This document shows, one piece after another, positions 33,105 to 53,752 of a DNA stretch of 57,898 bases (position 1 is the first letter of the stretch; every line of letters begins with the position of its first letter). Under the pieces are notes generated by a model, which searched no databases, was not told the origin of the DNA, and saw only the letters and a program-made list of their open reading frames with translations. Where the stretch lies: positions 79,455 through 137,352 of the forward strand of contig JAQVMB010000001.1 of the NCBI GenBank assembly GCA_028703835.1, given 5' to 3'. The DNA is from Candidatus Peribacteraceae bacterium. Lineage in GTDB: Bacteria; Patescibacteriota; Gracilibacteria; Peribacterales; Peribacteraceae. The position numbers were made by a program, and so were the translations under genes.

Positions 33105-33119
33105 TTCCTTTGCCGTTGC

Positions 33120-33210: not shown

Positions 33211-33239
33211 AATGCTCTCTCCACTCTCCTTGTTCTCTG

Positions 33240-34457: not shown

Positions 34458-34463
34458 GACGCA

Positions 34464-34491: not shown

Positions 34492-34497
34492 CGTATT

Positions 34498-35058: not shown

Positions 35059-35105
35059 ATATTCGACGAATGAAGGAAGAAAATGGTTCTCCCTGTCAGG
35101 AAGTC

Positions 35106-35133
35106 TTTACAAGGGACTGCGAATCTCTATCAT
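35106..35133 (+). promoter_or_regulatory. Promoter of the internally duplicated gene
   Basis: TTTACA (35106-35111), 16-nt spacer, TATCAT (35128-35133); leader about 18 nt. Confidence 0.55.
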
Positions 35134-35157
35134 GACGTTCCTTTTCTTTCAGAACAT

Positions 35158-35571
35158 ATGGCTCTCCATCCCGAAGGATACGAATGCCGCGTCCAAGCGG
35201 ACCCGGTGCGGATCTCGCGCGAGACAGGCATGACGGTATTGCCGCTGCGGATGATGGAGAATGACGATTGGATCGTGTCGGTGCCCCGCATCGAAGCAAT
35301 CCAATGCAATGCAGCGGAACGTTTGAGACCGTATCTGAGTCCAAAGATGACGGGAGAATATCGCGTCCAAGGTGACCCTGTCACGATTTCACAGTCTACG
35401 GGTCTGACGCTGCAGATGAAGGGGGCTCGGGAAAATGACGACCGAGTGGTAAGCGTATCACCTCTCGACCGCGAGAGGAGAGATGTCGAAGGTTTGCTGC
35501 AACAGTTTCTTGCGGCGCGAGGGGACGGCGAGCTACGACAACACCCCGACGTCCGCAAGCAGGCCGCCTGA
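35158..35571 (+). CDS. Unknown protein with an internal tandem duplication
   Basis: 137 residues from ATG 35158 (MALHPEGYECRVQADPV). Two copies of a ~45-residue unit: ECRVQADPVRISRETGMTV ... ENDDWIVSV and EYRVQGDPVTISQSTGLTL ... ENDDRVVSV, followed by a short Arg/Glu/Gln-rich tail. No signal peptide or membrane helix. The unit, about three to four predicted beta strands, suggests a duplicated small beta domain. It ends 2 nt before the convergent EamA gene. Function unknown. Confidence 0.6.
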   Translation: MALHPEGYECRVQADPVRISRETGMTVLPLRMMENDDWIVSVPRIEAIQCNAAERLRPYLSPKMTGEYRVQGDPVTISQSTGLTLQMKGARENDDRVVSVSPLDRERRDVEGLLQQFLAARGDGELRQHPDVRKQAA

Positions 35572-35573
35572 CC

Positions 35574-36443
35574 TCAGGCGAAGCGCAGGCCGAGGATGCC
35601 CGCGATGACGGCGGCGATGGAGAGCCACTGGGCCGGACGCAGTTTTTCGCCGTACAACCAGTGCGCCAGGAGGGCCGTGAAGGCGAGCGATACCGTCCCG
35701 ACCGCACCGAGAACCGCCACGGGTCCCAGGCGCACCGCGAGCCCGAAGCAGCCCGTGCCCAGGAGGGTGGGCCAGGAACGCAGAGCGATGGCGCCGAAGG
35801 AGCGGAGGGAAATACGCTCCAGGCTTCGTCCTCCCGCGCCGCGCCGGAGCGCCAGCAGCACGACGGTCGCCGCGGCGATGGCCGCCTCCCAGAAGTACCC
35901 GCCCACCAAGGGGCTTGCGGAACGGCTGAGCGTGATGAACGCGACGTTGGCGAGGACGAACGAGAATGCCGACAGGAGGACCAGAAGGAGTCCGAGCAGG
36001 CCGCGTTCGTCCAAGTGCGGCATCGCATGCTTGCGGGTCCCGAGGAACACCCCCGCTGCAATGATCAACGCGATGCACAATACGGCGGCCGGGGAGAGGT
36101 TCTCTTCCCAGAACGTCCATGCGACGGCGGCGAGCAGGATGGTGGTGACGGAGCGCTGGAGCGCATGCGCGACGCCCACGGGCACGAAACGGTATGCCGC
36201 GTACGCGAACGTCAGGGAAAACCCGCCGCCGATCCCTCCCAGCAGAAGCATGTCCCACTCCCGCAACACGGCGAATAGTTCTCCGGAGGAAGCACCCAGG
36301 AGGAGCGGCAGGAGCGTGACGGGGAAGGCGACCCCGCGGTAGAAGGCGAGGCTGAGCGTGTCCATGTTCCGTGCGTAGGGCACGAGCAGCACGCTCTGCA
36401 GCGCGTAGCCGGCAGCCGAAAGGAGGGCAAGGAGGTGGAACAT
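35574..36443 (-). CDS. EamA/DMT-superfamily transporter
   Basis: 289 residues with about ten membrane helices and two EamA repeats; the second ends with ALLAHWLYGEKLRPAQWLSIAAVIAGILGLRF, typical of drug/metabolite transporter permeases. Helix 1 carries AAGYALQSVLLVPYARNMDTLSLAFYRG. These proteins move amino acids, nucleosides or drugs out of or into the cell; the substrate is unknown. The convergent neighbour ends 2 nt away, so no terminator fits between them. Confidence 0.88.
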   Translation of the reverse strand: MFHLLALLSAAGYALQSVLLVPYARNMDTLSLAFYRGVAFPVTLLPLLLGASSGELFAVLREWDMLLLGGIGGGFSLTFAYAAYRFVPVGVAHALQRSVTTILLAAVAWTFWEENLSPAAVLCIALIIAAGVFLGTRKHAMPHLDERGLLGLLLVLLSAFSFVLANVAFITLSRSASPLVGGYFWEAAIAAATVVLLALRRGAGGRSLERISLRSFGAIALRSWPTLLGTGCFGLAVRLGPVAVLGAVGTVSLAFTALLAHWLYGEKLRPAQWLSIAAVIAGILGLRFA

Positions 36444-36559
36444 TCGTCAATGGCGTACAATGGGCGTTCGGTTGCAGTGTACGCGAAATTCACGTAAACG
36501 CGGAGGGAGGTGTACGAATTGAGTACAAAAAATTCAGCGTTATGAAGGCGTGCACATTA

Positions 36560-36588
36560 TTGACATAAATGTACATAAATTCTATTAT
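36560..36588 (+). promoter_or_regulatory. Consensus promoter of the unknown gene at 36612
   Basis: TTGACA (36560-36565), 17-nt spacer, TATTAT (36583-36588). The predicted start (~36595) lies after the first in-frame ATG (36591), so translation should use ATG 36612. Confidence 0.7.
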
Positions 36589-36611
36589 GAATGTCTCTTC
36601 GATATTTTCTT

Positions 36612-37325
36612 ATGGGTAGTTTGCGTACTTCAGAAACAGCTCTTGTCACTGTGCAGCAACAGAACGAGTCTTCGGAAAGATCGAAGGACGGTTGCAGAGA
36701 TCGAAGAGTTTGGGCGGTCATCAAGCGACCGGGCGAGTCACATGAGGTTCATGCGGCGATAGAAACCGAAAGAAACAAGTTCACAAGCGTGGGACGCTGG
36801 GAAGCATTAACAGCTTCTGTTTCGATACCGACTTTCGAGGAAATCTACTACAAAGTGTCTACGGAAGTAACAAGCACACTGAAACGACTGTTCGAGCTAT
36901 TCGGAGCCAGTACCCCGGATTCTCTCGTTGTCCCTGAGATGCAGTATTTGCAGCTTTCCTTGAACCGCTTAGGATTGCCGATTTATCCTGAAACAGGTGT
37001 ATGGACTTCACGAGAAGATTTCGACTTTTCGAAAAGGCAGCTCATCGGATATGCCGATAGACATTTTGATAGACGTCGAGATTCTTGGCGGCGGCTGCGT
37101 GGATTAGACCCCCAACAGCCAGATCCTCTGGCCAACATCGAACAGGATTCTCCATCAACTGGTATCGAATATGCACAATTGATCGTGCAGGCACACATTG
37201 TGAGAAGAGAACTGGATGAGTTGATTGCGATGGTTCATCCAGATCACCAAAACGATCTCAGATCTGCGGCAATCGTATTAGAACGAGTACCACACCCCGG
37301 AACAGACCTATTGTCCCCCCGTTGA
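36612..37325 (+). CDS. Unknown protein of atypical (lower-GC) composition
   Basis: 237 residues (244 if ATG 36591 were used, which the promoter position argues against). No signal peptide, membrane helix or recognised domain; the middle (EEIYYKVSTEVTSTLKRLFELFG) and C-terminus (AQLIVQAHIVRRELDELIAM) are helical. Its codons are visibly richer in A/T than those of neighbouring genes, suggesting recent acquisition next to a tRNA gene, a common insertion site. No integrase is present. Confidence 0.55.
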   Translation: MGSLRTSETALVTVQQQNESSERSKDGCRDRRVWAVIKRPGESHEVHAAIETERNKFTSVGRWEALTASVSIPTFEEIYYKVSTEVTSTLKRLFELFGASTPDSLVVPEMQYLQLSLNRLGLPIYPETGVWTSREDFDFSKRQLIGYADRHFDRRRDSWRRLRGLDPQQPDPLANIEQDSPSTGIEYAQLIVQAHIVRRELDELIAMVHPDHQNDLRSAAIVLERVPHPGTDLLSPR

Positions 37326-37436
37326 ACCTTCCTTCTCTTTCCCATACACTACGAAAAGCAACAGGACGTTCTTTCGGCAACAGCGTGGGTCGGCCCGGCT
37401 TCGTCTGCGGACTTTGCCGAGGCGAGTAGCGTTCTC

Positions 37437-37445
37437 TGCTACACT
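37437..37445 (+). promoter_or_regulatory. Extended -10 of tRNA-Tyr
   Basis: TGCTACACT, ending 28 nt before the mature tRNA. Confidence 0.4.
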
Positions 37446-37473
37446 TCCACGTCGTTCATTTTCTTCTTTGATT

Positions 37474-37559
37474 GGGTCGGTAGCGAAGTGGTCAAACGCA
37501 GCAGACTGTAAATCTGCCGTCTTCGGACTTCGAAGGTTCAAATCCTTCCCGGCCCACCA
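37474..37559 (+). tRNA. tRNA-Tyr (GTA anticodon)
   Basis: 86 nt. The acceptor stem GGGTCGG pairs with CCGGCCC, followed by discriminator A and an encoded CCA (37557-37559). The anticodon GTA is at 37508-37510 in ACTGTAAATC. A long variable arm (CGTCTTCGGACTTCG region) makes it class II, as expected for bacterial tRNA-Tyr; T-arm GGTTCAAATCC is normal. Confidence 0.95.
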
Positions 37560-37650
37560 GTAATCGCATGGGGAGGAGAACCTCCCAATCACGCCCGTGG
37601 CTGCGAGAACTCACCGTCCATGCCCGGTCGAAATGAAGTGTGCAATGCGT

Positions 37651-37676
37651 GAAGAAGCCCCTTTCGGGGCTTCTTC
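37651..37676 (+). terminator. Terminator hairpin after tRNA-Tyr
   Basis: GAAGAAGCCCC-TTTC-GGGGCTTCTTC with an 11-bp stem, followed by TGTTCTTCTC. It could serve both the tRNA and the convergent secreted-protein gene. Confidence 0.75.
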
Positions 37677-37699
37677 TGTTCTTCTCTTCCCGATAGAGG

Positions 37700-38341
37700 T
37701 TATTGATTGTCGGAGGTGGAGGATCCGTTCCAGCCGCGATGCATACCGCGCCCCATGCCGGGGTTCGGCAGGGTGACACCTTTCTCTTCCGCGATCTCCT
37801 GGATGGTCTTGCCGCCGTCGAGGGCGCTCTTCAGCTCATCGGCGGTCATGCCCAGTTTCTCGGCGATCATGCCGTTGCCAAAGTTCCCGCCCTTCATGTC
37901 CGGGCCGTTACCGCGCATTCCCATGGATCCGGCGCCGAAGCCCATGCCGAATCCGCCGGCATTGCCGCAGGCGGTTTTCACCGATTCGCGGGCGGAGGCC
38001 ATCGCATCCTGCTGGGATTCCATGGCGGTCCGGAAATCGTCATTCGCTTTCTTGACTGCTTCCTGGCGTTGCGTGTCATCCGTGATGGTTGCGGCGGCGG
38101 TCAGGGCGTCTTTTCGTGCCTGCAACGCGGTCTTGTGTGCGGCAAAGAATGTGTCCATGTTCGACAGTTGCGTCCCGTCCGCGTCCGCGAGCGCTTCGAC
38201 GCAGGTTTGGGAGGGGATGGGCTGCGTGCGAGCGGCATTGGACGATACGCCGGAGGCGGCGCTCGCCAGCTGGGCGACGAGCGGAACGGCCAGTGCGAGG
38301 GAGGAGGCGCCTGCGATGACGCCGAGCGTGAATTTTTTCAT
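37700..38341 (-). CDS. Secreted Met/Gly-rich protein with a GKTIQEIA-type helical repeat
   Basis: 213 residues with a signal peptide (about 1-29, ending LASAAS). Helical middle with many Ala, Gln and Lys (residues ~45-120), a Gly/Met-rich segment (GFGMGFGAGSMGMRGNG), then the motif AEKLGMTADELKSALDGGKT followed by IQEIAEEKGV, and a tail GMGRGMHRGWNG rich in Met, His and Gly. The same motif occurs in the protein at 40544. Its promoter carries the CTTAATC repeats of the neighbouring two-component system, so it is probably a regulon member. Spy/CpxP-like sensing or metal binding by the Met/His tail is speculation. Confidence 0.6.
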   Translation of the reverse strand: MKKFTLGVIAGASSLALAVPLVAQLASAASGVSSNAARTQPIPSQTCVEALADADGTQLSNMDTFFAAHKTALQARKDALTAAATITDDTQRQEAVKKANDDFRTAMESQQDAMASARESVKTACGNAGGFGMGFGAGSMGMRGNGPDMKGGNFGNGMIAEKLGMTADELKSALDGGKTIQEIAEEKGVTLPNPGMGRGMHRGWNGSSTSDNQ

Positions 38342-38366
38342 ACGAGAGTGGGGGGAAAAAATGAGA

Positions 38367-38390
38367 GATGTCCGTCGCGACAGGGACATC
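38367..38390 (-). promoter_or_regulatory. 5' leader hairpin of the secreted-protein gene
   Basis: GATGTCC and GGACATC (7-bp perfect arms) enclose CTGTCGCGAC, itself palindromic. It lies at or just after the predicted transcription start (-10 TATGAT 38393-38388) and may stabilise the mRNA or bind a regulator. Confidence 0.4.
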
Positions 38391-38420
38391 ATACGAGGGC
38401 ATCTTTAAGAGCGGATTAAG
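38388..38420 (-). promoter_or_regulatory. Response-regulator boxes and -10 of the secreted-protein gene
   Basis: CTTAATC (38420-38414) and CTTAAAG (38409-38403) are direct repeats 11 nt apart on the minus strand, followed by TATGAT (38393-38388). Compare 40415-40432 and 40470-40487. Confidence 0.6.
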
Positions 38421-38452
38421 GGGTGTTGATAGGTTGGACACTTCTCAAAGGT

Positions 38453-38537
38453 ATCAAGAATTCAAGAATGATGGAATCCTTGAGATCCTGCCTTTTGAGA
38501 TCTTTCCCGAATTCCTGCAATCCTGAATTCTTGGATT
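38453..38537. repeat. Palindromic repeat between the kinase and secreted-protein genes
   Basis: TATCAAGAATTCAAGAATGATGG at left mirrors TTCCTGCAATCCTGAATTCTTGG at right; the centre contains TGAGATC/GATCT arms. It ends at the kinase stop codon and may terminate that operon. Confidence 0.6.
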
Positions 38538-38538
38538 C

Positions 38539-39711
38539 TCAGTGTGTGAGGGCGATGGCGAACTTTGTTCCCTTTCCCGTCTTGCTCTGCACGCCGATGG
38601 ACATTCCGTGCAGTTCCACGACGCGTTTCACCAGGGCCAGGCCCAGGCCGAAGCCGTGCCTGGCTCGCGACGTATCCGCTTGGTAGAAGCGGTCAAACAC
38701 ATGGGGGAGATCTTTCGCGGGAATGCCGATGCCCGTATCTTCCACCGAGAGCTGTTCTGCGGTGAGGCGGATGCGCACGGTTCCGCCCGCCGGTTTGCTG
38801 AATTTGATCGCGTTCGAGAGCAGGTTGCCGATCGCCTGGCGCAAGAGGAGCGCATCGCCGCGCACGGTCACCTTTTGTTCCGTTTCCGTTTCCAGCGTCA
38901 CGTGCGCATCTTTCGCGGACGAACGAAGTTTCGCCGCCGCTTCCCGGACGAGAGCGGACAGGTCGACCATGCCGTTCTCGAGGACGAACGAATCGAGACG
39001 CGCGAGTTCCAGAAGTCGCTCCACAAGGACGGCGACGTCTTTCAGGTCTTCCTTCGCCGAGAGGATGCCTTCGCGGAGCTTGCCGTTCCGCATCGCGAGA
39101 TCGAGCGACGAGTTGACGGTGGCCAGCGGTGTGCGCAATTCATGACTGGCGTCCTGCGTGAATTGTTCGAGGCGTTCCATCATGTCTTGTGCGGGTTGCA
39201 GACTGCGTCGTGCGAAGGAAATGCCCACGGCATACGTGAGGGCGGACATGCCGACGCTCACGGCGAGATAGAGCCAGATTCGCAGCGGCAAATCTCCCAT
39301 CTGCTGTCGTTCGAGATCTGCGAACTGCACGTAACCTTTCACGGCGCCGTTCTCGAGGACGGGGCGGGTGAGTACGGCATATTGCTCGTTTTGGACGGTG
39401 ATGCGGGAAAAGCCCGGTTCCGTGGTGACGGGAACGTCTTCGAAGAAGCCGCCATCATAGACGACATTTCCTTCCGTATCTAAGACTCGGATGCGTTCCC
39501 GCATGCGAGGCGCCATCCCGGGTGGCGGTGCACCGCGTCCGAACTGTAAAGGGCCGGGGCCGGTCTCGGAGAATCGTTCGAGGCGGAACAACGTCTGACG
39601 ACGGGCGTTCCCGAAGTCGGCGACCAGGAAGATCGCGCCGTTCACCATAAAGAGGAGGAAGACGAAGGCGGTGAACTGGAGCGCGATGCGGCGGCTGATC
39701 TTCTTGAACAT
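38539..39711 (-). CDS. Sensor histidine kinase
   Basis: 390 residues. Two membrane helices (about 9-31 and 145-166) enclose a ~110-residue extracytoplasmic sensor containing RIRVLDTEGNVVYDGG. Dimerisation/phospho-acceptor helix with DASHELRTPL (His190), then N-box NLLSNAIKFS, G1 DTGIGIP, F-box and G2 HGFGLGLALVK of a standard HATPase. It phosphorylates the response regulator encoded one base upstream. The ligand is unknown; the regulon content (exporter and small envelope proteins) suggests envelope stress or a toxic compound. Confidence 0.93.
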   Translation of the reverse strand: MFKKISRRIALQFTAFVFLLFMVNGAIFLVADFGNARRQTLFRLERFSETGPGPLQFGRGAPPPGMAPRMRERIRVLDTEGNVVYDGGFFEDVPVTTEPGFSRITVQNEQYAVLTRPVLENGAVKGYVQFADLERQQMGDLPLRIWLYLAVSVGMSALTYAVGISFARRSLQPAQDMMERLEQFTQDASHELRTPLATVNSSLDLAMRNGKLREGILSAKEDLKDVAVLVERLLELARLDSFVLENGMVDLSALVREAAAKLRSSAKDAHVTLETETEQKVTVRGDALLLRQAIGNLLSNAIKFSKPAGGTVRIRLTAEQLSVEDTGIGIPAKDLPHVFDRFYQADTSRARHGFGLGLALVKRVVELHGMSIGVQSKTGKGTKFAIALTH

Positions 39712-39712
39712 G

Positions 39713-40375
39713 TTATGCGGAAGGGACGAGATACCCTTTGCCCGGGACCGTCTGTATCACGGACTTGCCCAGTTTACGCCGGAGGTAGGCGACGTGCACA
39801 TCGACGGTCTGCGAGAAGAGCAGTTCATCACGGCCGCCCCACACGTGTTCGATGATCCTTGGGCGGTCCTGCACTGCACCCTTGTTGCGCAGCAGGAATT
39901 CGAAGAGTGCGTATTCCTTTGGGGAAAGGTCGACTTTCTTTCCGCTCTTGCGCACTTCCTGCGTGTTCGTGTCCAAGCTGATCGTTCCCGCCGAGAGCAG
40001 GGGATTCTTCTCGTCGCAGTGGCGGCGCAGGAGGGCGCGCACGCGCGCGAGCAACACGTCCAGATCGAAGGGCTTGGTGAGGTAGTCGTCCGCGCCGATG
40101 TTGAGGCCGTGGACGATTTCCTGCTGCTTCGTCCGCGCCGTGAGCATCAGGATGGGCATGCTTTTCTTGTTCTGACGCAGCATCGTGCAGATCACGTAGC
40201 CGTCCATGCCGGGCAGGTTGATATCGAGGATGAGGAGGTCCACCTCCTGCGTCATCGCCTTCTCGAAGCCTTCCTTCCCGTCATGTGCGACGGTGACCGC
40301 GTAATGTTCCAGCTCCAGGTACTCCCGGATGTTCCGCGCCAGTTTCTCCTGATCCTCAATGAGGAGGATGTGCAT
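39713..40375 (-). CDS. OmpR/PhoB-family response regulator
   Basis: 220 residues: receiver with phospho-acceptor Asp51 (LLILDINLPGMDGY), conserved Thr (MLTARTK) and Lys (DDYLTKPFD), then a winged-helix output domain (LSPKEYALFEFLLRNKGAV, and VDVHVAYLRRKLG with the recognition helix). ATG 40375 (MHILLIEDQEKLARN) is the proper start; the longer frame is not. It is followed by the kinase after a 1-nt gap. Direct repeats CTTAATC-N4-CTTAATC precede this gene and two other transcription units, so it is very likely autoregulated. Confidence 0.95.
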   Translation of the reverse strand: MHILLIEDQEKLARNIREYLELEHYAVTVAHDGKEGFEKAMTQEVDLLILDINLPGMDGYVICTMLRQNKKSMPILMLTARTKQQEIVHGLNIGADDYLTKPFDLDVLLARVRALLRRHCDEKNPLLSAGTISLDTNTQEVRKSGKKVDLSPKEYALFEFLLRNKGAVQDRPRIIEHVWGGRDELLFSQTVDVHVAYLRRKLGKSVIQTVPGKGYLVPSA

Positions 40376-40414
40376 GGTTGCACGAGGGGTAGAATACGTA
40401 GGGTAGAGCAGAAG

Positions 40415-40432
40415 GATTAAGGTGAGATTAAG
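40415..40432 (-). promoter_or_regulatory. Response-regulator binding repeat upstream of the two-component operon
   Basis: Two CTTAATC copies on the minus strand (40432-40426 and 40421-40415), 11 nt start to start, then TACCCT ~9 nt further. Spacing fits an OmpR/PhoB dimer at the -35. Confidence 0.65.
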
Positions 40433-40469
40433 AGATAGAAGTGACTCGATATTGCCGTTGCCGTCAGTT

Positions 40470-40505
40470 CTTAATCTCGTCTTAATCCTTTGTCTGTAGT
40501 ATAAT
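40470..40505 (+). promoter_or_regulatory. Response-regulator repeat and promoter of the second exporter operon
   Basis: CTTAATC at 40470-40476 and 40481-40487 (11 nt apart) followed by TATAAT at 40500-40505. With a 17-nt spacer the -35 would lie at 40477-40482, where there is no TTGACA, so activation by the bound regulator is expected. Confidence 0.7.
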
Positions 40506-40543
40506 AGCAAGATTACATTCCTACCACTTTCCGTCTCCTTTCT

Positions 40544-40927
40544 ATGAAGAGCATCCATCCTCTCTCCTTTGTTCTGGGATTTGTCTCGGGACTCGTCATC
40601 CTGCTGGTCGTTGCAGGCGGCCTGCGTCTCTTCGGATCATCGCGTTCCGGCATGCCCGCTCGAAACGGCGCTTGGCAGCAGAATGCGGGGCAGGGGATCG
40701 GTGCGGGGCGGATGGCGGAGCGATTGGGCATGACGGAGGAGGACCTGCAGAAGGAATTGGCGGCCGGGAAGACAATGCAGGAGATCGCGGCTGAACGCGG
40801 CGCCGAGATGCCAGGCCGGGGCATGGGGCGCGACAATATGCTTGTGACAGGATCCGGAAGCATGTCTTCCGTCGCATCCGGTTCCGGCATTCTCCGGCTC
40901 CAGACCGGTGCCATTCTTCAACCCTGA
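40544..40927 (+). CDS. Membrane-anchored protein with the GKTMQEIA-type repeat
   Basis: 127 residues. One N-terminal membrane helix (LSFVLGFVSGLVILLVVAGG), a Gly/Gln-rich stretch, then MAERLGMTEEDLQKELAAGK followed by TMQEIAAERGAEMPGRGMGR, closely resembling the motif in the secreted protein at 37700. The C-terminus is Ser/Gly-rich. It is the first gene of the exporter operon (stop overlaps the next start as TGATG) and lies behind the CTTAATC repeats. It may modulate the exporter or the kinase; unproven. Confidence 0.6.
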   Translation: MKSIHPLSFVLGFVSGLVILLVVAGGLRLFGSSRSGMPARNGAWQQNAGQGIGAGRMAERLGMTEEDLQKELAAGKTMQEIAAERGAEMPGRGMGRDNMLVTGSGSMSSVASGSGILRLQTGAILQP

Positions 40928-42948
40928 TGATTATGTATATCCCTTCTTTCGTGCAACGCTTCCGTGTGCCTGACCGTTTGCAGCCGTTCCTGCGGCGCAT
41001 CGAGCGGCGGAGCTTCTCATACGGTTTGATCCTGTGTCTTCTCCTTGGCGGCAGCTATGCATTGTTCACCGGTGATGAGTCAACGGACGCGCAGGACCAA
41101 GCGGTGGCCGCGGTGGAACGCCGCACGATCGTGACGTCGGTGAAGGCGGTGGGGACGGTGACGTTCGCGAGCGAGCAGGAAATGCAATTCAACCAGAAAG
41201 GCACCGTTGCCCGCGTGCTCTTCAAGGAAGGTGATGCCGTGAAGAAGGGGCAGGTGATCGCCGAGCTGGACAAAACGACCGTCCTCGCCGATATCCGGCA
41301 GGCGGAACTGTCGGTGGGAGCCAGCTACTTGCAGCTGCAGCAGCAGCAGAGCGAGCGCCAGCAGCAGATTATCGAAGCGGAGAACGCCCTGCGCGAAACC
41401 GAGCGGCAGTTCCAGCAGGCGCAGAACAGCCTGCAGGTGGCCCAGGAGGAGCTGCCGTCGGACCTGGAGGCGGCGCAGCGAGCCGTTGCGGAAAAGGAAG
41501 CGGCGCTCGCGCAGGCGCAGGCGGAGCTGGCCAAGACGCAGCAGACGGAGCTGCAATCCCTCGCCAAGACGACGCAGGACATCCTCGCGGATTCAGAAAA
41601 GCTTCTCGACACATTGTACGGAGTCCTTACGCAGGGGAGTTCCGCACGCCCTCCGCGGGGAAATTACACGTTGGATATTTACCATCAGCTCTTCCGGGAT
41701 TTGTCCGCGAAACAACAAGTGGAACGCAGTTATCTGGATGCCGTTCGTTCGGCGGAACAGATGCGCGGGACGTACGGTGACACACTCTCCACACAGCGGA
41801 CTCCTTCCGTCCTCCTCACGGCTCTCGGGGAAGCGGAAACCCTTGCGGAAGCCGTACACCTTCTTTCGGAGGGCATGTATGCCATGCTGCAGGGGGCGAC
41901 GACGGATGCGGACAACTTCACCGTCGCGGACCTGGCATCCACCCGCACCACGGTGAGCTCCGCCCGTTCGACGGCCTCAGCGCTCATGCAGAGCGCCCAG
42001 ACCGCGCGGTCCAATCTTGCCGCCGCCACATCGTCGGGCGACGGCATACCGAGCCTCACGCTGAAGCAGAAGGAAGATGCGGTCGTGTCGGCCGGGAATG
42101 CCCTGACACAGGCAAAGGCAAATCTCCAGTTGCTCCAGACGAAGACGCCGGGCGACCTGGAACAACAGCAGGCGGCCATCGCGAAAATGCAGGAGGAGCT
42201 CCAGTCGAAGAAGGCGGCGGTGCAGTCCACCAAGACGAGCGTGGATGTGAATATCCAGCTCAAGCAGAATGATGTCGCGCAGAAGTCCACGTCGCTCTCC
42301 AAGACGCGCAAGACCGTGGAAGACTACCAGCTCGTCGCACCGTTCGACGGCGTCGTCCGCCGCATCGACTACCAGGTGGGTGACAACCTGTTGGATACCG
42401 GTGAAGACAAATCCGTCGTGTTGGAGAATCCGGATTTCCTCATCGTGACGATTCCGCTGGACCAGGTGGACGTGGTCCGTGTCCTGCGGGACATGCCCGC
42501 AGCCATCGTATTTGATGCCGTTCCCGGGCAGACGTTCCAAGGCGCCGTCGACGAGATCAACCCCGTTCCGATCGTGCAGTCGAGCGTCGTGTCCTACGAG
42601 GTGGCCGTGAAGTTGGCGACGCCCGAGAGCCTCACGATCCTCTCCGGCATGACCGCGACCGTGGAAATCGAGACGGCCCGCAAGGAGAGCGTGGTTGCCG
42701 TGCCCAATCTGGCGCTGAAGACGATCGGCACGGCGAAGACCGTGCAGAAAGCGTCGGGAGAGACGGCGACGGTGACGATCGGCGTGACGGACGGCCGGTA
42801 CACGGAGATCCTCTCCGGTGTGCAGGAAGGGGAGAGCGTTGTCTCCGTGAACGTGTCCGCCGCCGGCTCCGCAACCAGTACCAACGCCAACTCCGCGCAG
42901 CAATTGATGCGCATGGGCGGAGGGATGGGAGGGCCGCGGGGCGGCTGA
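40927..42948 (+). CDS. HlyD/MacA/YknX-type membrane fusion protein, second system
   Basis: 673 residues, longer than most MacA proteins. One membrane helix (about 34-49), lipoyl half (FNQKGTVARVLFKEGDAVKKGQVIAELDK), a very long helical hairpin (~120-470, Gln/Ala-rich), second lipoyl half (LVAPFDGVVRRIDYQVGD), beta-barrel, and a Gly/Met-rich tail (MRMGGGMGGPRGG). It connects the downstream ABC ATPase and permease to the substrate outside. The start is ATG 40927, or ATG 40933 two codons later. Confidence 0.88.
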   Translation: MIMYIPSFVQRFRVPDRLQPFLRRIERRSFSYGLILCLLLGGSYALFTGDESTDAQDQAVAAVERRTIVTSVKAVGTVTFASEQEMQFNQKGTVARVLFKEGDAVKKGQVIAELDKTTVLADIRQAELSVGASYLQLQQQQSERQQQIIEAENALRETERQFQQAQNSLQVAQEELPSDLEAAQRAVAEKEAALAQAQAELAKTQQTELQSLAKTTQDILADSEKLLDTLYGVLTQGSSARPPRGNYTLDIYHQLFRDLSAKQQVERSYLDAVRSAEQMRGTYGDTLSTQRTPSVLLTALGEAETLAEAVHLLSEGMYAMLQGATTDADNFTVADLASTRTTVSSARSTASALMQSAQTARSNLAAATSSGDGIPSLTLKQKEDAVVSAGNALTQAKANLQLLQTKTPGDLEQQQAAIAKMQEELQSKKAAVQSTKTSVDVNIQLKQNDVAQKSTSLSKTRKTVEDYQLVAPFDGVVRRIDYQVGDNLLDTGEDKSVVLENPDFLIVTIPLDQVDVVRVLRDMPAAIVFDAVPGQTFQGAVDEINPVPIVQSSVVSYEVAVKLATPESLTILSGMTATVEIETARKESVVAVPNLALKTIGTAKTVQKASGETATVTIGVTDGRYTEILSGVQEGESVVSVNVSAAGSATSTNANSAQQLMRMGGGMGGPRGG

Positions 42949-42980
42949 ACCATCCGCATTTCAGATTATACCGTCTCTCC

Positions 42981-43646
42981 ATGATTCAGCTGCGCCACAT
43001 CATCAAGTCGTATCCGCTCGGAGAGGAGCGGCTTGTCGTGCTGAAGGGCATTGCGCTCACGATCAAGCGTGGGGAATTTGCCGCCATCATGGGGCCGTCC
43101 GGATCGGGCAAATCCACGCTCATGAACATCATCGGTCTTCTGGATACGCCGACGACGGGATCCTATCTCCTGGAGGGAAAGGAAGTGGGGAATTTGAGCG
43201 AGAACGAGCAGGCGGACGTGCGGAGTTCCCGTATCGGGTTCGTTTTCCAGGCGTTTAATCTCCTGCCGCGGATGGATGCGTTGCGCCAGGTGATGCAGCC
43301 GCTCCTGTATCAGGGCGTGCACCGTTCGCTGGCGGAAAAGCGGGCGCGGGAAGCGCTGCATATCGTCGGCCTCTCCGAACGCATTTCCCACAACCCCAAC
43401 GAGCTTTCCGGCGGACAACAGCAGCGCGTCGCCATCGCGCGGGCGCTCGTCACGGATCCGGCCATCATCCTGGCGGACGAGCCCACGGGCGCGCTGGATA
43501 CGCAGACCGGCGAAGAAGTGATGGAGATCCTCACGTCGCTCAACAAGCGGGGAAAGACCATCGTCATGGTGACGCACGAGCCGCGCGTCGCGGGTTTCGC
43601 GCACCGCACCATCCATATCCAGGACGGCCTTATCCTTACACAATGA
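42981..43646 (+). CDS. MacB/LolD-type ABC transporter ATPase, second system
   Basis: 221 residues, complete: Walker [11 protein letters not shown]-loop [11 protein letters not shown], signature [14 protein letters not shown], Walker [15 protein letters not shown]-loop MVTHEPR. Pairs with the permease at 43789. It is only moderately similar to the first ATPase in this window outside the motifs, so the two exporters are distinct. Confidence 0.94.
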
Positions 43647-43674
43647 TTTCCACGTTTGTTTCTGCCGGCTGCAC

Positions 43675-43760
43675 TTCTCTCCCGGAAGCTCTCAGCTATC
43701 AGCGGTCAGCTGTCAGAATGCCTGAAAGCCGGAAGCTGACGACTGAAAGCTTCTCTGTTT
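43675..43760. repeat. CAGCT-rich palindromic repeat in the second exporter operon
   Basis: CCGGAAGCTCTCAGCTATCA, CAGCGGTCAGCTGTCAG, GCCTGAAAGCCGGAAGC and GACGACTGAAAGC. Same words as at 33120-33210; both copies sit just before a permease gene. Confidence 0.7.
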
Positions 43761-43788
43761 CTCTCTCCGCTTCCATCCGCCCCGTCAC

Positions 43789-45018
43789 ATGAACTTCCTC
43801 GAGAACATCCGCAACGCGCTCGGCGCCATCGGGAGCAACAAAATGCGCTCCGGCCTCACGATGCTCGGCATCATCATCGGCGTGTCGTCGGTGGTGCTGC
43901 TCGTGGCCATCGGGCAGGGCGCGCAACGCAGCGTCACGTCGCGCATCCAGAATCTGGGAACGAACCTGCTCACCGTCTCACCCGGCAGTCCCAACCAGAC
44001 GAACGTGCGGTTCGGCGGCGGCGGAGGCGGCGGAAGCACGACGGCGTTGCAAATGACGGACGCGGAGGCCATCAAGGAATTCGTGACGGGACTCAGCGGC
44101 ATCGAGCCGGAGATGCGCAGCCGATTCCAAGTGATTTACGGCAGCAAAAACACGAACACGACGGTCGTGGGCACCACGGAGGCGTATACCGCCGTCCGTA
44201 ACGCGCCGCTTGCGTACGGGAGTTTCATCACGGCGGAGCACGTCGCGAACGTGGAGCGGGTGGCGGTGCTGGGGCCCACGACGCTCTCCACGCTCTTTCC
44301 GGATGATCCGGATCCGTTGGGCAGGGACATCCGCATCGGCGGCAACATCTTCACGGTCATCGGTGTGATGGAGTCCAAGGGCCAACAGGGATTGGATAAT
44401 TCCGACGACATGATTTTGGTCCCGGTCACCTCCATGCAGAAGCGCCTCACGGGAGCGGAGACGCTCAGTTCCATCGCCGTGTCCGTCGCGGAGGCGTCGG
44501 ACATGGACCGTGTTCAAGAGATGATTACGGCGGTTCTCCTCAACGAGCACCGGATCACGGACGTGAGCAAGCAGGATTTCACCGTCCTCAACCAGGCGGA
44601 CGCGGTGGAAACGCTCAACGAAGTGACGTCCACGTTCACGCTGCTCCTCGGCGGCATCGCCGCGATTTCACTGTTGGTCGGCGGCATCGGCGTGATGAAC
44701 ATCATGCTCGTGTCGGTGACGGAACGGACGCGGGAGATCGGCGTCCGCAAGGCCATCGGCGCGAAGAAACGCGACATTCTCCTGCAGTTCCTCGTTGAGG
44801 CGGTGGTGCTGAGCGTGCTGGGCGGCCTGGTGGGCATTCTCTTCAGCGCCATCGGTTCGTGGCTGGTGACGCTGTATGCCAGCCTGGACGCAAGCATCGC
44901 CCTCTCGTCGGTCTTCCTGGCGTTCGGGTTCTCCGTGTGTGTGGGCGTCTGCTTCGGCATGCTGCCGGCGTGGAAGGCGGCGAAGCTGCGGCCGATCGAG
45001 GCGCTGCGGTATGAGTGA
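43789..45018 (+). CDS. MacB/FtsX-type ABC permease, second system
   Basis: 409 residues with the MacB plan: first helix GLTMLGIIIGVSSVVLLVAIG, a PCD domain (with a Gly-rich run FGGGGGGGS near residue 75), three C-terminal helices and GGIGVMNIMLVSVTERTREIGVRKAIGA, ending PIEALRYE. Here a single permease would work as a homodimer, unlike the two-permease first system. Last gene before the transposase unit. Confidence 0.93.
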   Translation: MNFLENIRNALGAIGSNKMRSGLTMLGIIIGVSSVVLLVAIGQGAQRSVTSRIQNLGTNLLTVSPGSPNQTNVRFGGGGGGGSTTALQMTDAEAIKEFVTGLSGIEPEMRSRFQVIYGSKNTNTTVVGTTEAYTAVRNAPLAYGSFITAEHVANVERVAVLGPTTLSTLFPDDPDPLGRDIRIGGNIFTVIGVMESKGQQGLDNSDDMILVPVTSMQKRLTGAETLSSIAVSVAEASDMDRVQEMITAVLLNEHRITDVSKQDFTVLNQADAVETLNEVTSTFTLLLGGIAAISLLVGGIGVMNIMLVSVTERTREIGVRKAIGAKKRDILLQFLVEAVVLSVLGGLVGILFSAIGSWLVTLYASLDASIALSSVFLAFGFSVCVGVCFGMLPAWKAAKLRPIEALRYE

Positions 45019-45078: not shown

Positions 45079-45119
45079 CATGCCTCTCGGAGGCATGGTT
45101 CTGCGGCCTTTGAGGCCGC
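45079..45119. repeat. Upstream REP pair
   Basis: Hairpin CATGCCTC-TCG-GAGGCATG (45079-45097) followed by GCGGCCT-TTG-AGGCCGC (45103-45119). Confidence 0.85.
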
Positions 45120-45136
45120 ACAGGAAGAATTATGAT
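45109..45136 (+). promoter_or_regulatory. Promoter of the REP transposase
   Basis: TTTGAG (45109-45114, in the REP hairpin), 16-nt spacer, TATGAT (45131-45136); ATG 6 nt later. Confidence 0.45.
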
Positions 45137-45142
45137 GAGAGT

Positions 45143-45823
45143 ATGACGGGTACGTTGCAGAAAAGGCACGGCGCATTCCTACCCCATTGGACAATCAAGA
45201 ACGGCATTTATGCCATATGTTTTCGGCTTGCAGATTCGATTCCCCAGATGCAATTGCGCTTATGGCAGCAAGAACGAAGAGACATCCTTGATGCCGCTCA
45301 AACCGGCAAGCGAGATCTTACGCCCCAGGAACGATTGCATCTTGTGCAGTTGAATAGCATGTCCATAGAACGATATCTTCGATGCGGATATGGAGACTGT
45401 TGGCTTCAGCGGGAAACAATCGCAACTATCGTGATTGATGCGTTGAAGTACTTTGAGGGAGAGAGATATCGCCTGTTTGCCTGGTGCGTCATGCCCAATC
45501 ACGTGCACGTAGTTGCTCAACCCTTTCCCGGTCAAACCCTCAGTGCCATTCTTCAGAGTTGGAAAGGGTTTACTGCCAGAGAAGCGAACAAGACGCTCCG
45601 TAGAACCGGAATGTTTTGGCAGCGGGAATACTTTGATCGATGGATACGCACGGCGGATGAACTTCAACATCACATCGCATATACTTGGGAAAACCCTGCT
45701 CTTGCCGGTCATGCCGCATGGCGATGGCGCTGGAAAATGGAAGAGGAGAGCGTTCGAACATTTATCCGTTCACATCCTGATTCACCCTGGAGCGGGCTCG
45801 AAGCCCGCGAAACCGCTCGCTGA
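45143..45823 (+). CDS. REP-associated tyrosine transposase (RAYT, IS200/IS605-like Y1 HUH)
   Basis: 226 residues. The HUH motif is in CVMPNHVHVVAQP; the single catalytic Tyr is probably in FWQREYFDRWI, followed by HHIAYTWENPALAG, which is typical of RAYTs. These enzymes cut single-stranded REP hairpins and are thought to have spread REP/BIME sequences; they are usually single-copy and domesticated. ATG 45143 fits the family start and lies 6 nt after a -10. The last codons overlap the downstream REP hairpin. The gene looks intact. Confidence 0.9.
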   Translation: MTGTLQKRHGAFLPHWTIKNGIYAICFRLADSIPQMQLRLWQQERRDILDAAQTGKRDLTPQERLHLVQLNSMSIERYLRCGYGDCWLQRETIATIVIDALKYFEGERYRLFAWCVMPNHVHVVAQPFPGQTLSAILQSWKGFTAREANKTLRRTGMFWQREYFDRWIRTADELQHHIAYTWENPALAGHAAWRWRWKMEEESVRTFIRSHPDSPWSGLEARETAR

Positions 45824-48793: not shown

Positions 48794-49261
48794 ATGCGTT
48801 CCTCATCCGTTGGCCGACGGGGGTTCACCCTCATCGAACTCCTGCTCGTGATCGGCATCATTGCCATCCTTGCGTCGATCGTGATCATCGCGATCAATCC
48901 CACCAAGCAGCTGGGCACAGCGCGCGACGCGCAGCGCCGCAGCGATGTCAACACGATCCTGAATGCGGTGTACCAGTACTCCATCGACAACAGCGGCGCA
49001 TTGCCCGGTGATATTCCGGTCACTCCCGCAGACGCCAAGCCCGTTTGCTTGGGTACTGTCACGGGAGCAGCTTGCACCGACGCCCCGGTCAGCGGCGTGG
49101 ACTTGTCAGATCTGACCGGTCCCTACCTCGTGGACATTCCCCAGGATCCGAACAAGGCAGATGCAACTACGACGGGTTATACGATCGTCAAAGATGCCAA
49201 TGATCGTATTACTGTTGCCGCTGTGGGAGAACAAACGGCATCCATCAGCGTCACGCGCTGA
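48794..49261 (+). CDS. Type IV pilin-like protein
   Basis: 155 residues. Short basic leader RSSSVGRRG followed by the prepilin motif G-FTLIELLLVIGIIAIL, where the prepilin peptidase cuts after Gly; then the amphipathic helix (QLGTARDAQRRSDVNTILNA) and a C-terminal beta domain with a Cys pair (residues ~84-93). It is the structural unit of a type IV pilus or pseudopilus. The pilB, pilC, pilD and pilM genes are not in this window. The terminator follows 16 nt after the stop. Confidence 0.93.
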   Translation: MRSSSVGRRGFTLIELLLVIGIIAILASIVIIAINPTKQLGTARDAQRRSDVNTILNAVYQYSIDNSGALPGDIPVTPADAKPVCLGTVTGAACTDAPVSGVDLSDLTGPYLVDIPQDPNKADATTTGYTIVKDANDRITVAAVGEQTASISVTR

Positions 49262-49613: not shown

Positions 49614-50720
49614 TCATTCCCGGCCGGCAAACAATGTTCTCCGTCCCGTCCAAACGAATGCTGCGATGCTTCCCGCCAACACCAGCCACAGTTCCGGACC
49701 GGCTTTGGTGCTTTCGTACACGGTGTCCGGCACGCAGCCTGCTTGTCCGGGGACGCAGGCGGCGCCATGGAGCGCGGGGCGCGAAGCGGCGGAACGTGCG
49801 GAAGATGCGGAGCGGGAAGAGCCGGCGGACACGGGTGTTCCCTGCGCGCCGATTTGGTACGGGTTGATGGGAAGCAAGTCTTCCATGCGAGCCTGTGCGG
49901 ACGATTCTTCGTCGGAGGCGGGTGCGGGAAGCGTCGGGATGTCCGTTTCCATCGGTTCCTGCGTCCGTGAAGCGGCGGATGAGGCGCGTTCGGAGGAGGC
50001 GGCGGGAGCGGACGAACGGGAAGAGGAGAAGGCACGGGAAGAAAGAGCGCGGGAAGACAGGGAGGAAGATGCGACGGGTCGCGAAGAAGCTGCATCGTCC
50101 GTATCGGTGGTGAAGACGGCATCCTGGGAAGATGCCGATTGCTCTTCCTCCGTGGGAATGCCGGACGACGATGCCGAGGCGACGGTGCCGTCATCGTCCC
50201 CGTCGGTCACGATCAGGGCGCCGATGACATCCTGTGACGTGAGGGATGCGTAGTCATGGCGTCCGGGTTCGAGGGAAGGGGAAACCATGAAGGCGTACGT
50301 CGAGCCGGGGAAGATGGCGGGGGAGTAGAGGTAGTTTCCGCTCTGGTCCTGCACGGTTGCGGATTGCAGGATGTGCGGCAATTCCTGCTCGTTATGCCAC
50401 ACGACCGTCTGCCCAGGGCGCACGTCGGCTTCGGCGGGATCGAGTCCTGCGGCGGTGATGCGAATGTCCATTTGCATCGGGAAATCGAGGGACGGGCCTC
50501 CGAGCGCTCCCCATCCGATGCGGAAGAGATTGCCTCCCGCGTACAAAATGCCGATGCCGGTGACGAGCAGAATGCCAAGGACGGCGCTCGGGAGACGTGA
50601 AACCGCAGCGCTTGCCACGGGAATGCGGACGGGAGCGGCATCCGGCGCAAGAAGCTCCTCCCGTGAACGGGGGGGAAGGTCTTCGCCCGTCGCGTGCCAG
50701 CGGGGATGCAGGCCGGTCAT
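49614..50720 (-). CDS. Membrane-anchored cupredoxin-like protein with Ser-rich stalk
   Basis: 368 residues. First membrane helix ~43-62, a cupredoxin-like domain ~83-172 (MDIRITAAGLDPAEADVRPG, TVVWHNEQELPHIL, then FPGSTYAFMVSP), a Ser/Ala-rich acidic stalk (~180-300), and a C-terminal helix (~342-357) followed by a basic tail. The first copper His is present (LPHIL) but the Cys/His/Met end of the site is not (HDYASLTSQDVIG), so copper binding is doubtful. Its ATG overlaps the stop of the cohesin gene (4 nt), making it the third gene of the operon. Probably displayed on the cell surface. Confidence 0.7.
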   Translation of the reverse strand: MTGLHPRWHATGEDLPPRSREELLAPDAAPVRIPVASAAVSRLPSAVLGILLVTGIGILYAGGNLFRIGWGALGGPSLDFPMQMDIRITAAGLDPAEADVRPGQTVVWHNEQELPHILQSATVQDQSGNYLYSPAIFPGSTYAFMVSPSLEPGRHDYASLTSQDVIGALIVTDGDDDGTVASASSSGIPTEEEQSASSQDAVFTTDTDDAASSRPVASSSLSSRALSSRAFSSSRSSAPAASSERASSAASRTQEPMETDIPTLPAPASDEESSAQARMEDLLPINPYQIGAQGTPVSAGSSRSASSARSAASRPALHGAACVPGQAGCVPDTVYESTKAGPELWLVLAGSIAAFVWTGRRTLFAGRE

Positions 50721-52258
50721 GTGCGGGGGAGGGAAGCGACGAATTGCCGGCGGACGGCCATGAGCGTGCCGATGACGGCGGAGACGACTAGGAGCAGGAC
50801 GGCGGTGGAAGGGAGGCCGGAAGCGCCGGGGACCGATCCGTCGCCGATCGTTTTCACGGGGTTCTGTCCCTGCGGTCCCTTGTCTTCCGGCCGCAGATAG
50901 AGCGGCGACGTCGCGGAACGGGGATCGCCGATGGTGACGGCGACTTCGCGGCTGAAGGAGGTTTCCTCGTTTGCGTCATTGAGGCCGCGGATGGCGATAT
51001 AATAGGTGACGCCTTCCGGGAGCGAGCGCACCGACGCGGACGTTTCATCCGCGCGGACGGTGCGGCGCTGGACGTACCTGCCCGTCTCCGTCCCGTAGTA
51101 CACGTTGTATCCCTGCAATGCCGGGGAAGAGAGTGTATCCCAAGCGATGAAGAGGGACGTGCCGTCGGTGGTGGCTCGCACGTTCTGCACCTGGAGGACG
51201 ACGAAAGCACTCCGTCCGCCCGATGATGCGGCCCCGTCATCCGCCGCACCGTGCGGTGTTTCCGACGGGGCGCTCGATGCTTCCGAAGAAGCGAGCGAGG
51301 ACGAAGACGAAACCGCGGGCGCCGTCTCGCCGGAAGCGGCGCTGCTCGATTGAACGGGCGGAACGGATGCGACGGACGCGTCCGAAGACGATGCGTCGTT
51401 TTCGTCCGCCGCGGACGATGCGGAGGAAGCGGGAACGGAAACGGAGGAAGAGGATCCCTCCGCGGGTTTCACGGATGGCTCGACGACCACGGAGAGCGTG
51501 CCCAATTTCGGCGACAGGATATTGTTGCCTGCGGCGGAATACACGGCTGCGTGCGGCGAAGAACCGGATGTGTCATAGAAGGCGATGACGCTCTTGCTGC
51601 CGGGAGGGGAACGGAGGACGCGGAATTGCACGTGGACGACGGGGACGATGGCATTCTTGTTCATGTCGGGAGTCGCCGTTTCCAGCTGGATCATCGCGTA
51701 CCCGCGTTCCGGATCGAACGCCGATTCGCCGGGCGTCGCGAGTGGGAAGAGCGAGGAAGGCGTGATCGACATGCCTTCCAGGATGTCGGGGTCGTACTGG
51801 AGCCAGGAGCGCACCTTCTGCACGGCCGCCTTGGGGGTGTTCTGCACCACGATGTCCAACGAGAGGATGTCTCCGACCGGCAGGGGATTCGTCTGGAGGG
51901 TCAGGGGGGACGTGACGAGGAAGGCGGAGCACTTCTTCTGGTCTTCCGTATTGTTCTCCAACCCCGCGCAGTGCGGACGGACGGAAAGGAACGCTTCCTT
52001 TGCTTGCTTCTTCGCCGCGGACGATGCCGATGATGCGGGGGCGGGAAGGGAGGCGGCGGACGATGCGGCGGCTGCCGCGGCGTCATCCGCAAGGGATGAA
52101 ACGGATGAGAACATCGTCGAGGAGCTGCCCGTTCCTGTCAGCACGTCGGCGGCGGCTCCGTGCAACCCGCGGACGGCGTAGGCGCCCGTGCCGGTCATGG
52201 CCGCCGCGAGGAGCGCGAGCGCAAGGAGGTGGCGGTGCATGGAATGCTGGGAAGTCAT
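50717..52258 (-). CDS. Cohesin-domain surface protein with FnIII and C-terminal anchor
   Basis: 513 residues. Signal peptide (~10-28), Ala/Ser-rich stretch (45-85), a cohesin-like domain ~115-260 (NPLPVGDILSLDIVVQN, SWLQYDPDILEGM, VPVVHVQFRVL, then a closing LGTLSVVV), a Ser/Ala-rich acidic linker (~265-348), a fibronectin type III domain ~352-443 (LFIAWDTLSSPALQGYNVYY and VTYYIAIRGLND), and a C-terminal helix ~484-503 preceded by GLPSTA and followed by RR. Cohesins bind dockerins by calcium-dependent contacts. A dockerin protein is encoded 3 nt upstream. LPSTA is a loose match to sortase signals; simple membrane anchoring is as likely. Confidence 0.8.
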   Translation of the reverse strand: MTSQHSMHRHLLALALLAAAMTGTGAYAVRGLHGAAADVLTGTGSSSTMFSSVSSLADDAAAAAASSAASLPAPASSASSAAKKQAKEAFLSVRPHCAGLENNTEDQKKCSAFLVTSPLTLQTNPLPVGDILSLDIVVQNTPKAAVQKVRSWLQYDPDILEGMSITPSSLFPLATPGESAFDPERGYAMIQLETATPDMNKNAIVPVVHVQFRVLRSPPGSKSVIAFYDTSGSSPHAAVYSAAGNNILSPKLGTLSVVVEPSVKPAEGSSSSVSVPASSASSAADENDASSSDASVASVPPVQSSSAASGETAPAVSSSSSLASSEASSAPSETPHGAADDGAASSGGRSAFVVLQVQNVRATTDGTSLFIAWDTLSSPALQGYNVYYGTETGRYVQRRTVRADETSASVRSLPEGVTYYIAIRGLNDANEETSFSREVAVTIGDPRSATSPLYLRPEDKGPQGQNPVKTIGDGSVPGASGLPSTAVLLLVVSAVIGTLMAVRRQFVASLPRT

Positions 52259-52261
52259 GGA

Positions 52262-52609
52262 TCACTGGCGGGAAACGGCGCGCAGGAGCGCGAGCAAGTC
52301 GTCGAGTGTCAGGGTGCCGTCCCCGTCGAGATCGGCGTCCGGGACGTCGTCGGCTTCGCTGTCCGTCTGTAAGAATGTCACCAGTGCGATGGCATCCTGC
52401 AGGTCCGTGGACCCGTCCGCATTGATGTCACCCGTTGCGGGGGCGCCGGAGAGCAGATTCGCCTGTTGCGCCTCACTGCGGCCGACCGGATGGACTTCTC
52501 CCGCGCTCTGGATGCCCACGAGGAATGCACCAGCCACGCAACTGAGCGCAAGACCTCCCAAACGGAGATTTTTGAAGGACAGGAAGCGTTGAAGGTGTGT
52601 GTGTAACAT
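52262..52609 (-). CDS. Small exported dockerin protein
   Basis: 115 residues. N-terminal hydrophobic segment (~16-33) acting as signal or anchor, a short linker, then a type I dockerin-like module: two F-hand loops with Ca2+ ligands D61-N63-D65-S67-D72 and D93-D95-D97-T99-D104, each followed by a helix (AIALVTFLQ and LLALLRAV). With no catalytic domain, its partner is presumably the cohesin of the next gene. Its -10 TATACT lies 8 nt before the ATG. First gene of the operon 52609-49614. Confidence 0.85.
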   Translation of the reverse strand: MLHTHLQRFLSFKNLRLGGLALSCVAGAFLVGIQSAGEVHPVGRSEAQQANLLSGAPATGDINADGSTDLQDAIALVTFLQTDSEADDVPDADLDGDGTLTLDDLLALLRAVSRQ

Positions 52610-52617
52610 TTCTCTCC

Positions 52618-52646
52618 AGTATAAGCCTTTTTCGCCTCTTTCTCAA
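52618..52646 (-). promoter_or_regulatory. Promoter of the dockerin/cohesin operon
   Basis: TTGAGA (52646-52641), 17-nt spacer, TATACT (52623-52618), minus strand; ATG 8 nt later. GGAGAG lies in the gap and could act weakly as an SD. Confidence 0.65.
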
Positions 52647-52765
52647 TCGATGGCATCTTGACAATCCATCGGCATGGGATGTTGCTATACACGATGGAAA
52701 ACACTTGGGAAGCATGAAATCTGTTGAGAACGGCGGTTTCTTCGCATGCAGGTCGCGGGATGCGG

Positions 52766-52771
52766 TACACT
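52766..52771 (+). promoter_or_regulatory. holA -10 box
   Basis: TACACT, 6 nt before GTG 52778; -35 weak. Confidence 0.45.
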
Positions 52772-52777
52772 GCCGCC

Positions 52778-53752
52778 GTGGCGGCAAACTTCTTCTACTT
52801 CACCGGTGAGAATGCGTATGCCCTCCGCGAGGAACTGGGCAAGTGGAAGCGGCAGTTCATGGAGAGGCACGGGGAGGAAAACCTCCTCGTGTTGCCTGCC
52901 GCGACCGTCCGGTTCAGGTCGTTTTTGGATGAGGCGGGCGTGGCCCCGTTCATCGCCGCCAAGCGTTTCATCCTCGTGGAGGGAACGCCGCCGTTTTCGA
53001 AGGAGGAGGTGGAAGCGTTGCCGTCGTCCATTCACCCGGATTGCATCGTCGTCATTGCGGATGCGCGGCCGGACAAGAGGCTGAACGCCGTGAAGGCCTT
53101 GGCAAAAGCGGCGGAGATGAAGGAGTTCCCGCTCCTCAAGGGCGCGCCGCTTCTCCACTGGATGGACCGGTATGCGGAGGCGTGCGGCGTGACGTTGACC
53201 CGGCCGGTGTCGTCGGCGCTCCTGGACGTGGTCGGCGAAGACCAGGATGCGCTGTCCCGGGAAATCGAGAAGCTCGCGCTCTACGCGACCGGGACGCCGC
53301 TCACGCCCGCGCACGTGGAAGCGCTCGCGGTGCCGTCGGGGGAGCGGAAAGTTTGGCAGCTCACCCAGTATCTTGCCGAGGGGAAACGGGGCGGCGCGAT
53401 GCGGTACGCCCGGCAGTTGCTGGAACACGGCGAAGACCCGTATGCGGTATGGAGCGTCCTCCTCTGGATGCTCCAGAGCCTGGTATCGGTTCGGGCGGCG
53501 GTGCGCGGCGGAGAACGACAGCCCGCCAGGATCGCGTCCCAATTTCGCGTGCCGTTCCCCACGGCGCGGGCGCTCCTTCCGCTCGCATCGCGCATCGCGG
53601 ATGACCGTTTGCACGACTTCCTCTCATGGGCGGCCGGATCGGACGTGCACCTGAAGACCGGCGGATACCGCGCATCGCGCGACGCGCCGGAGGAACTGAT
53701 CTGCCTCATCGACAGCTTCATCATCCGATGCGGCGACGCGGCAGCCGCGTGA
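52778..53752 (+). CDS. holA: DNA polymerase III delta subunit (HolA)
   Basis: 324 residues. N-terminal strand NFFYFTGENAYALREELGKWK, domain with KRFILVEGTPPFSKEEVEALPSSIHPDCIVVI, then AGRASEIEKLALYATG-like lid (DALSREIEKLALYA) and a C-terminal helical domain (VWSVLLWMLQSLVSVRAA). HolA opens the beta clamp for loading. The GTG start (VAANFFYF) is preferred to ATG 52760 because the -10 TACACT lies between them, 6 nt before the GTG. Divergent from the dockerin operon. Confidence 0.85.
   Translation: MAANFFYFTGENAYALREELGKWKRQFMERHGEENLLVLPAATVRFRSFLDEAGVAPFIAAKRFILVEGTPPFSKEEVEALPSSIHPDCIVVIADARPDKRLNAVKALAKAAEMKEFPLLKGAPLLHWMDRYAEACGVTLTRPVSSALLDVVGEDQDALSREIEKLALYATGTPLTPAHVEALAVPSGERKVWQLTQYLAEGKRGGAMRYARQLLEHGEDPYAVWSVLLWMLQSLVSVRAAVRGGERQPARIASQFRVPFPTARALLPLASRIADDRLHDFLSWAAGSDVHLKTGGYRASRDAPEELICLIDSFIIRCGDAAAA

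Follow-up and report, generated by a model that had tools for sequence, protein, structure and literature searches.

A conserved dockerin, cohesin, and cupredoxin-fold operon in Peribacteraceae and its predicted cell-envelope complex

What do a cohesin and a dockerin build when neither is joined to an enzyme? The question is posed by three adjacent genes of a Candidatus Peribacteraceae bacterium (Patescibacteria; genome 1.34 Mb, 98.5% complete), within a 57,898-nucleotide stretch of DNA that is called the window below. An initial annotation had proposed that the pair may form a minimal surface complex or adhesion device and that no system of this design had been described. The second claim holds in part: Noncellulosomal cohesins and dockerins have been described from archaea, ANME archaea among them, and from diverse bacteria (PMC9012536), whereas we found no description of the architecture seen here—a single-pair, cargo-less three-protein operon, apparently reduced from a five-gene assembly. 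The ANME study refers to Peer et al. 2009 and to experiments in which archaeal pairs were assayed for binding; it also cautions that what such modules imply does not follow clearly from their mere presence. S-layer proteins, sortase, and large exported proteins are mentioned in the Peribacteria genome paper (PMC4736985), but cohesin and dockerin are not. Our literature search found no paper joining dockerin, cohesin, and Peribacteria, and its sole match for dockerin with Gracilibacteria was a rumen survey.

Organization of the Locus

The three genes lie on the minus strand, in the order small dockerin protein (52262–52609; 115 aa), cohesin-FnIII protein (50717–52258; 513 aa), and a protein with two transmembrane (TM) helices and a cupredoxin fold (49614–50720; 368 aa). 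A 3-nt gap separates the first two ORFs and a 4-nt ATGA overlap joins the second to the third, in exact agreement with the initial annotation. Joint conservation of the three genes across Peribacteraceae argues that the arrangement is not due to chance. NCBIfam holds no model for any of the three proteins.

A sigma-70-type promoter, TTGAGA-17-TATACT (52618–52646, minus strand), heads this tight operon, with its −10 box ending 8 nt upstream of the dockerin start codon. The single promoter proposed earlier is borne out: It is the sole sigma-70-like match within 3.7 kb (shuffled sequences give 0.4 ± 0.6), and a TATAAT-like box stands directly 5′ of the dockerin start codon in nearly all of 29 relatives, so close that a very short transcript leader is expected. 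Read-through from the dockerin into the cohesin ORF over the in-frame TGA was considered and is unsupported, because the two ORFs share a frame in only 9 of 29 loci and differ in the others.

Divergently upstream, and outside the system, lies a conserved holA-like gene (DNA polymerase III delta; 52724–53752, plus strand). Other features of the window include a type IV pilin-like gene convergent to the operon (N_methyl, 28.7 bits; 48794–49261, plus strand), clusters of MacB/FtsX-type permease and HlyD-like fusion protein genes with an ABC ATPase (29317–45018), an IS200-like (Y1) transposase-related gene (45080–45823, plus strand), an 868-aa type IV secretion coupling-protein-like ATPase (1972–4578, plus strand), and the window's sole tRNA gene, for tRNA-Tyr (37474–37559, plus strand). 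Several relatives carry a homologue of the MacB/FtsX-HlyD cluster downstream of the operon.

Domain Architecture and Predicted Folds

The dockerin protein consists of an N-terminal TM segment (aa 17–33), a juxtamembrane motif, and a type-I-like dockerin. Its two Ca2+ loops, DINADGSTDLQD and DLDGDGTLTLDD (aa 61–72 and 93–104), both fit the pattern D-x-N/D-x-D-x3-D/T-x2-D and are complete, as first described. Dockerin_1 (PF00404) scored 22.2 bits in one run and 23.5 in another, against a cut-off of 22.9, and Peribacteraceae orthologues lie clearly above it (34.6 and 37.1; range 34–37). Two complete loops and a profile match place the module in type I, though the window score straddles the cut-off. 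Compared with the PDB, the dockerin sequence returned calmodulin EF-hand matches, which are uninformative.

The second protein carries a cohesin (aa ~89–262), a Ser/Ala-rich linker, an FnIII domain (aa 350–445; fn3, 31 bits, cut-off 25), and a C-terminal TM (aa 484–506); its N-terminal signal is probably cleaved. Profile matching, which placed the window dockerin at or near its threshold, left the window cohesin below its own: Cohesin (PF00963) scored 19.8–21.6 bits under a curated cut-off of 24.1. Several Peribacteraceae orthologues pass (41.9 in G184, 38.9 in G062). We modeled the natural in-frame dockerin-TGA-cohesin stretch, read under table 25, with AlphaFold2 from the family alignment (pTM 0.56), and the predicted structure has the cohesin jelly-roll fold, with pLDDT ~95–98 over most of the domain. 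The best VIA-align matches in the PDB, which span the cohesin part of the model alone, are cohesins: 2vo8 (Z 14.0, rmsd 2.4, 134 aligned), 2w1n (cohesin plus FnIII; Z 13.6), and archaeal 2xdh (Z 12.3). Fold and orthologue scores together uphold the cohesin identity initially assigned. Two cysteines at the cohesin N terminus, C97 and C110, are invariant and may form a disulfide. In several relatives (loci L067, L072, L075, L077, L078) a Cys-rich repeat (CxxxxCxxGxC) takes the place of the window protein's Ser/Ala-rich linker.

The third protein runs from a cytosolic N-tail through TM1 (43–61), the cupredoxin fold (82–172), a Ser/Pro-rich linker, an NPYxxG motif, and a (T)GP motif to TM2 (342–365). 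The term cupredoxin-like, used in the initial annotation, fits the fold and not the copper site. A Greek-key beta-barrel is present in the predicted model (pLDDT 92–98; Z 12.0 to 4hcg, rmsd 1.8, 86 aligned), but none of 30 members has a Cys in the ligand loop of a type 1 copper site, and the Cys-x-x-His pattern is absent. Copper binding and electron transfer were accordingly rejected, the ligands being missing family-wide. Possible sortase anchoring of the third protein (LPxTG-type motif, TM, and basic tail) was also considered. Before TM2 the family consensus reads QPxTGPxxW, and the window copy TKAGP; sortase was found in 40 of 40 relatives, with four sortase matches in the window genome.

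Predicted TM topology supports the membrane or surface placement of all three products. Conservation is high in the ectodomains and extends into the helices of each: F29 and G32 are invariant in the dockerin protein, A494, G497, T498, A501, R504, and Q505 are invariant or nearly so in the cohesin-FnIII protein, as are A46 and G49 in TM1 of the third. From these conserved residues, helix packing among the three proteins can be proposed.

Distribution in Peribacteraceae

The gene order recurs throughout the family. Among 31 family genomes studied in detail, all of which carry the holA-like gene as a marker of the locus, 29 have a small dockerin immediately 5′ of cohesin-FnIII, and the third gene follows in nearly all. 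The other two are G180, with a large dockerin protein instead, and G184, with no detected dockerin. A search of 74 family genomes with a family profile detected the dockerin in 70, in most of them once. Of the four lacking a match, G216 and G220 are incomplete; G184 and G219, from a single genus, retain the cohesin, and the link between the two modules is therefore not absolute. Cohesin-like ORFs also occur elsewhere in the phylum, where the profile matched 52 of 287 genomes, Peribacteraceae accounting for 13.

Because the window genome has just one detected dockerin and one detected cohesin, and most others a single detected dockerin, the cohesin of the operon is the obvious partner. Three family genomes (G207, G208, G232) encode additional proteins of large size that contain DUF11, DUF4215, and between one and four dockerin stretches (L137:506-7093, L139:4740-9173, L138:5318-7111), which are possible clients of the surface cohesin.

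Larger Operons in Relatives

Other families of the class carry a larger operon around the cohesin-FnIII-TM gene. Among the sister families examined, members of f9 (G049, G095, G031, G009) show a five-part order, and f2 (G001, G035) carries related versions. Upstream stand a lipoprotein-like cohesin of ~200 aa and dockerin/Ig-like proteins of 559–2459 aa; 3′ lies a two-TM protein whose N terminus bears a similar W/T motif and which also has an N-x-x-T-V motif and a TGP C terminus. Between families, the cohesin profiles match at 99.8%. For the third protein, the comparison is weak (33 C-terminal columns, 22% probability), and its homology, which draws on motifs and this C-terminal match, is proposed tentatively.

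The Peribacteraceae member G180 has the five-gene form at the holA locus: a first protein of 565 aa, an Ig-like one of 1320 aa, a lipoprotein cohesin, cohesin-FnIII, and a two-TM protein. The 565-aa protein ends in a dockerin and bears the TM motif SFVLGL (SFxxG) of the small dockerins. A tree of cohesin-FnIII proteins, for which f9/f2 served as outgroup, has G180 splitting before all other family members (99/94), a basal place that its long branch leaves short of beyond doubt. Given the five-gene form in basal G180 and in other families, the window operon looks like the reduced core of a larger five-gene assembly. Reduction would have cost the first protein its payload between TM and dockerin and removed two further components entirely, the Ig-like protein and the lipoprotein cohesin; TM-dockerin, cohesin-FnIII-TM, and the two-TM protein would have been kept.

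A separate architecture occurs in further families of the class (f18, f23, f26), where a single chain of ~500 aa combines a lamin-tail domain, a cohesin, an FnIII-like domain, and a C-terminal dockerin (L142:8036-9505, L143:7271-8947, L144:6095-7564, L145:601-2097, L146:7569-9089, L147:5799-7241; Pfam run on the first two loci). In most, a gene for a smaller TM protein follows. This chain is a possible self-polymerizing surface fiber.

Predicted Assembly and Competing Readings

We hold with moderate confidence that the operon encodes a small noncellulosomal cohesin–dockerin complex of the cell envelope, assembled in cis, probably Ca2+-dependent, whose cargo has been lost and whose core has been kept. 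The genes, their folds, conservation, and coinheritance, the relatives' larger operon, and the basal place of one of them are the observations from which we infer topology, binding, Ca2+ dependence, packing, and cis assembly. The dockerin protein would be held by its N-terminal TM, and the cohesin-FnIII protein by its C-terminal TM, each with its binding module outside. The third protein would cross the membrane twice and expose its copper-less cupredoxin on the outer side, where it would serve a structural or a binding role. Dockerin would lock into cohesin on the same cell, probably with Ca2+, and the TM regions of the three proteins would pack into one surface complex, which large Ig-like dockerin proteins would join in relatives with the ancestral operon. 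Of the two roles first suggested, comparative data favor the minimal surface complex.

Whether the dockerin stays in the membrane depends on its N-terminal segment. The annotated "exported dockerin" stands as to its two Ca2+ loops; the hydrophobic segment is probably a retained anchor and not a cleaved signal, as the invariant F29 and G32 suggest. Were it cleaved, a mature dockerin of ~70 aa would act as a soluble adaptor or cap, plugging the surface cohesin or passing it to other partners. The very small size of the mature protein fits such a role, and near-invariant A47, beyond the TM, could be where processing occurs. However, A47 lies ~14 residues past the hydrophobic core, invariant residues and a conserved juxtamembrane motif would be unusual in a disposable signal, and the motif is retained in the 565-aa G180 homologue; we regard cleavage as unlikely.

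An anchored dockerin could instead act in trans, binding the cohesin of another cell in kin aggregation or host attachment. Both modules are seemingly membrane-tethered and surface-exposed, syntrophic-consortium ANME archaea are rich in noncellulosomal dockerin and cohesin proteins (PMC9012536), and a Saccharibacteria epibiont is reported to have a dockerin-domain protein among its essential proteins (PMC10633639). The reach from TM to dockerin end is short, however (~70–80 aa), and tight co-operon structure with conserved TM residues suggests in-membrane partners, which leaves adhesion between cells a slim chance.

Similarly improbable is a cohesin that works as a general receptor, displaying other surface proteins that bear dockerins, the small dockerin being a remnant or place-holder. 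In its favor, other families and G180 have genes for large dockerin proteins next to those for cohesins, and a few family genomes have the extra DUF11/DUF4215 proteins; but most family genomes, that of the window included, have no other detectable dockerin, and the small one is conserved. Finally, although cohesin and dockerin are cellulosome modules, a minimal cellulosome, or any other scaffold for enzymes, merits practically no credence: The operon's dockerin protein, the genome's sole detected one, carries no catalytic domain, no dockerin-bearing enzyme was detected in the genome, and its one dockerin and one cohesin come with no enzyme domain.

To a broader proposal we give slightly less than even credence: Patescibacteria of this class would assemble a dedicated membrane-surface machine by cohesin–dockerin locking, and the cargo-free pair itself would be the conserved functional unit in Peribacteraceae, a three-protein intramembrane and extracellular complex.

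Relation to Known Systems

The operon shares with the cellulosomes of Clostridium and Ruminococcus the cohesin fold (Z 12–14), a type-I-like two-loop dockerin, and a surface-tethered cohesin. It differs in having no enzymes, no multicohesin scaffoldin, and one pair per genome, in a dockerin that carries a TM alone, and in anchoring via TM helices. The closest folds, those of the Clostridium perfringens GH33 and GH84C modules (2vo8; 2w1n, cohesin-FnIII), also place cohesin before FnIII; there the modules are part of glycoside hydrolases, whereas the window protein is membrane-anchored and has no catalytic domain. With Archaeoglobus fulgidus (2xdh; cohesin fold Z 12.3) and ANME archaea (PMC9012536) the operon shares noncellulosomal modules in an organism with no sign of a cellulosome, but ANME archaea have multicohesin scaffoldin-like proteins and dockerin-bearing transporter proteins, in contrast to the dedicated, conserved three-gene operon of single modules described here. 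The larger operons of other families of the class and of G180 have the same succession of dockerin proteins, cohesin-FnIII-TM, and two-TM protein; they add the 559–2459-aa dockerin/Ig-like proteins and the lipoprotein cohesin, and the window has the core only.

The locus thus offers a single-pair, cargo-less example, conserved family-wide in a ~1.3-Mb genome and accompanied by an evolutionary series from five genes to three. In this operon, the question of what noncellulosomal cohesins and dockerins do comes down to three small proteins amenable to expression and testing. More broadly, the locus suggests that Patescibacteria, a phylum whose cell-surface biology is little known, have conserved surface assemblies.
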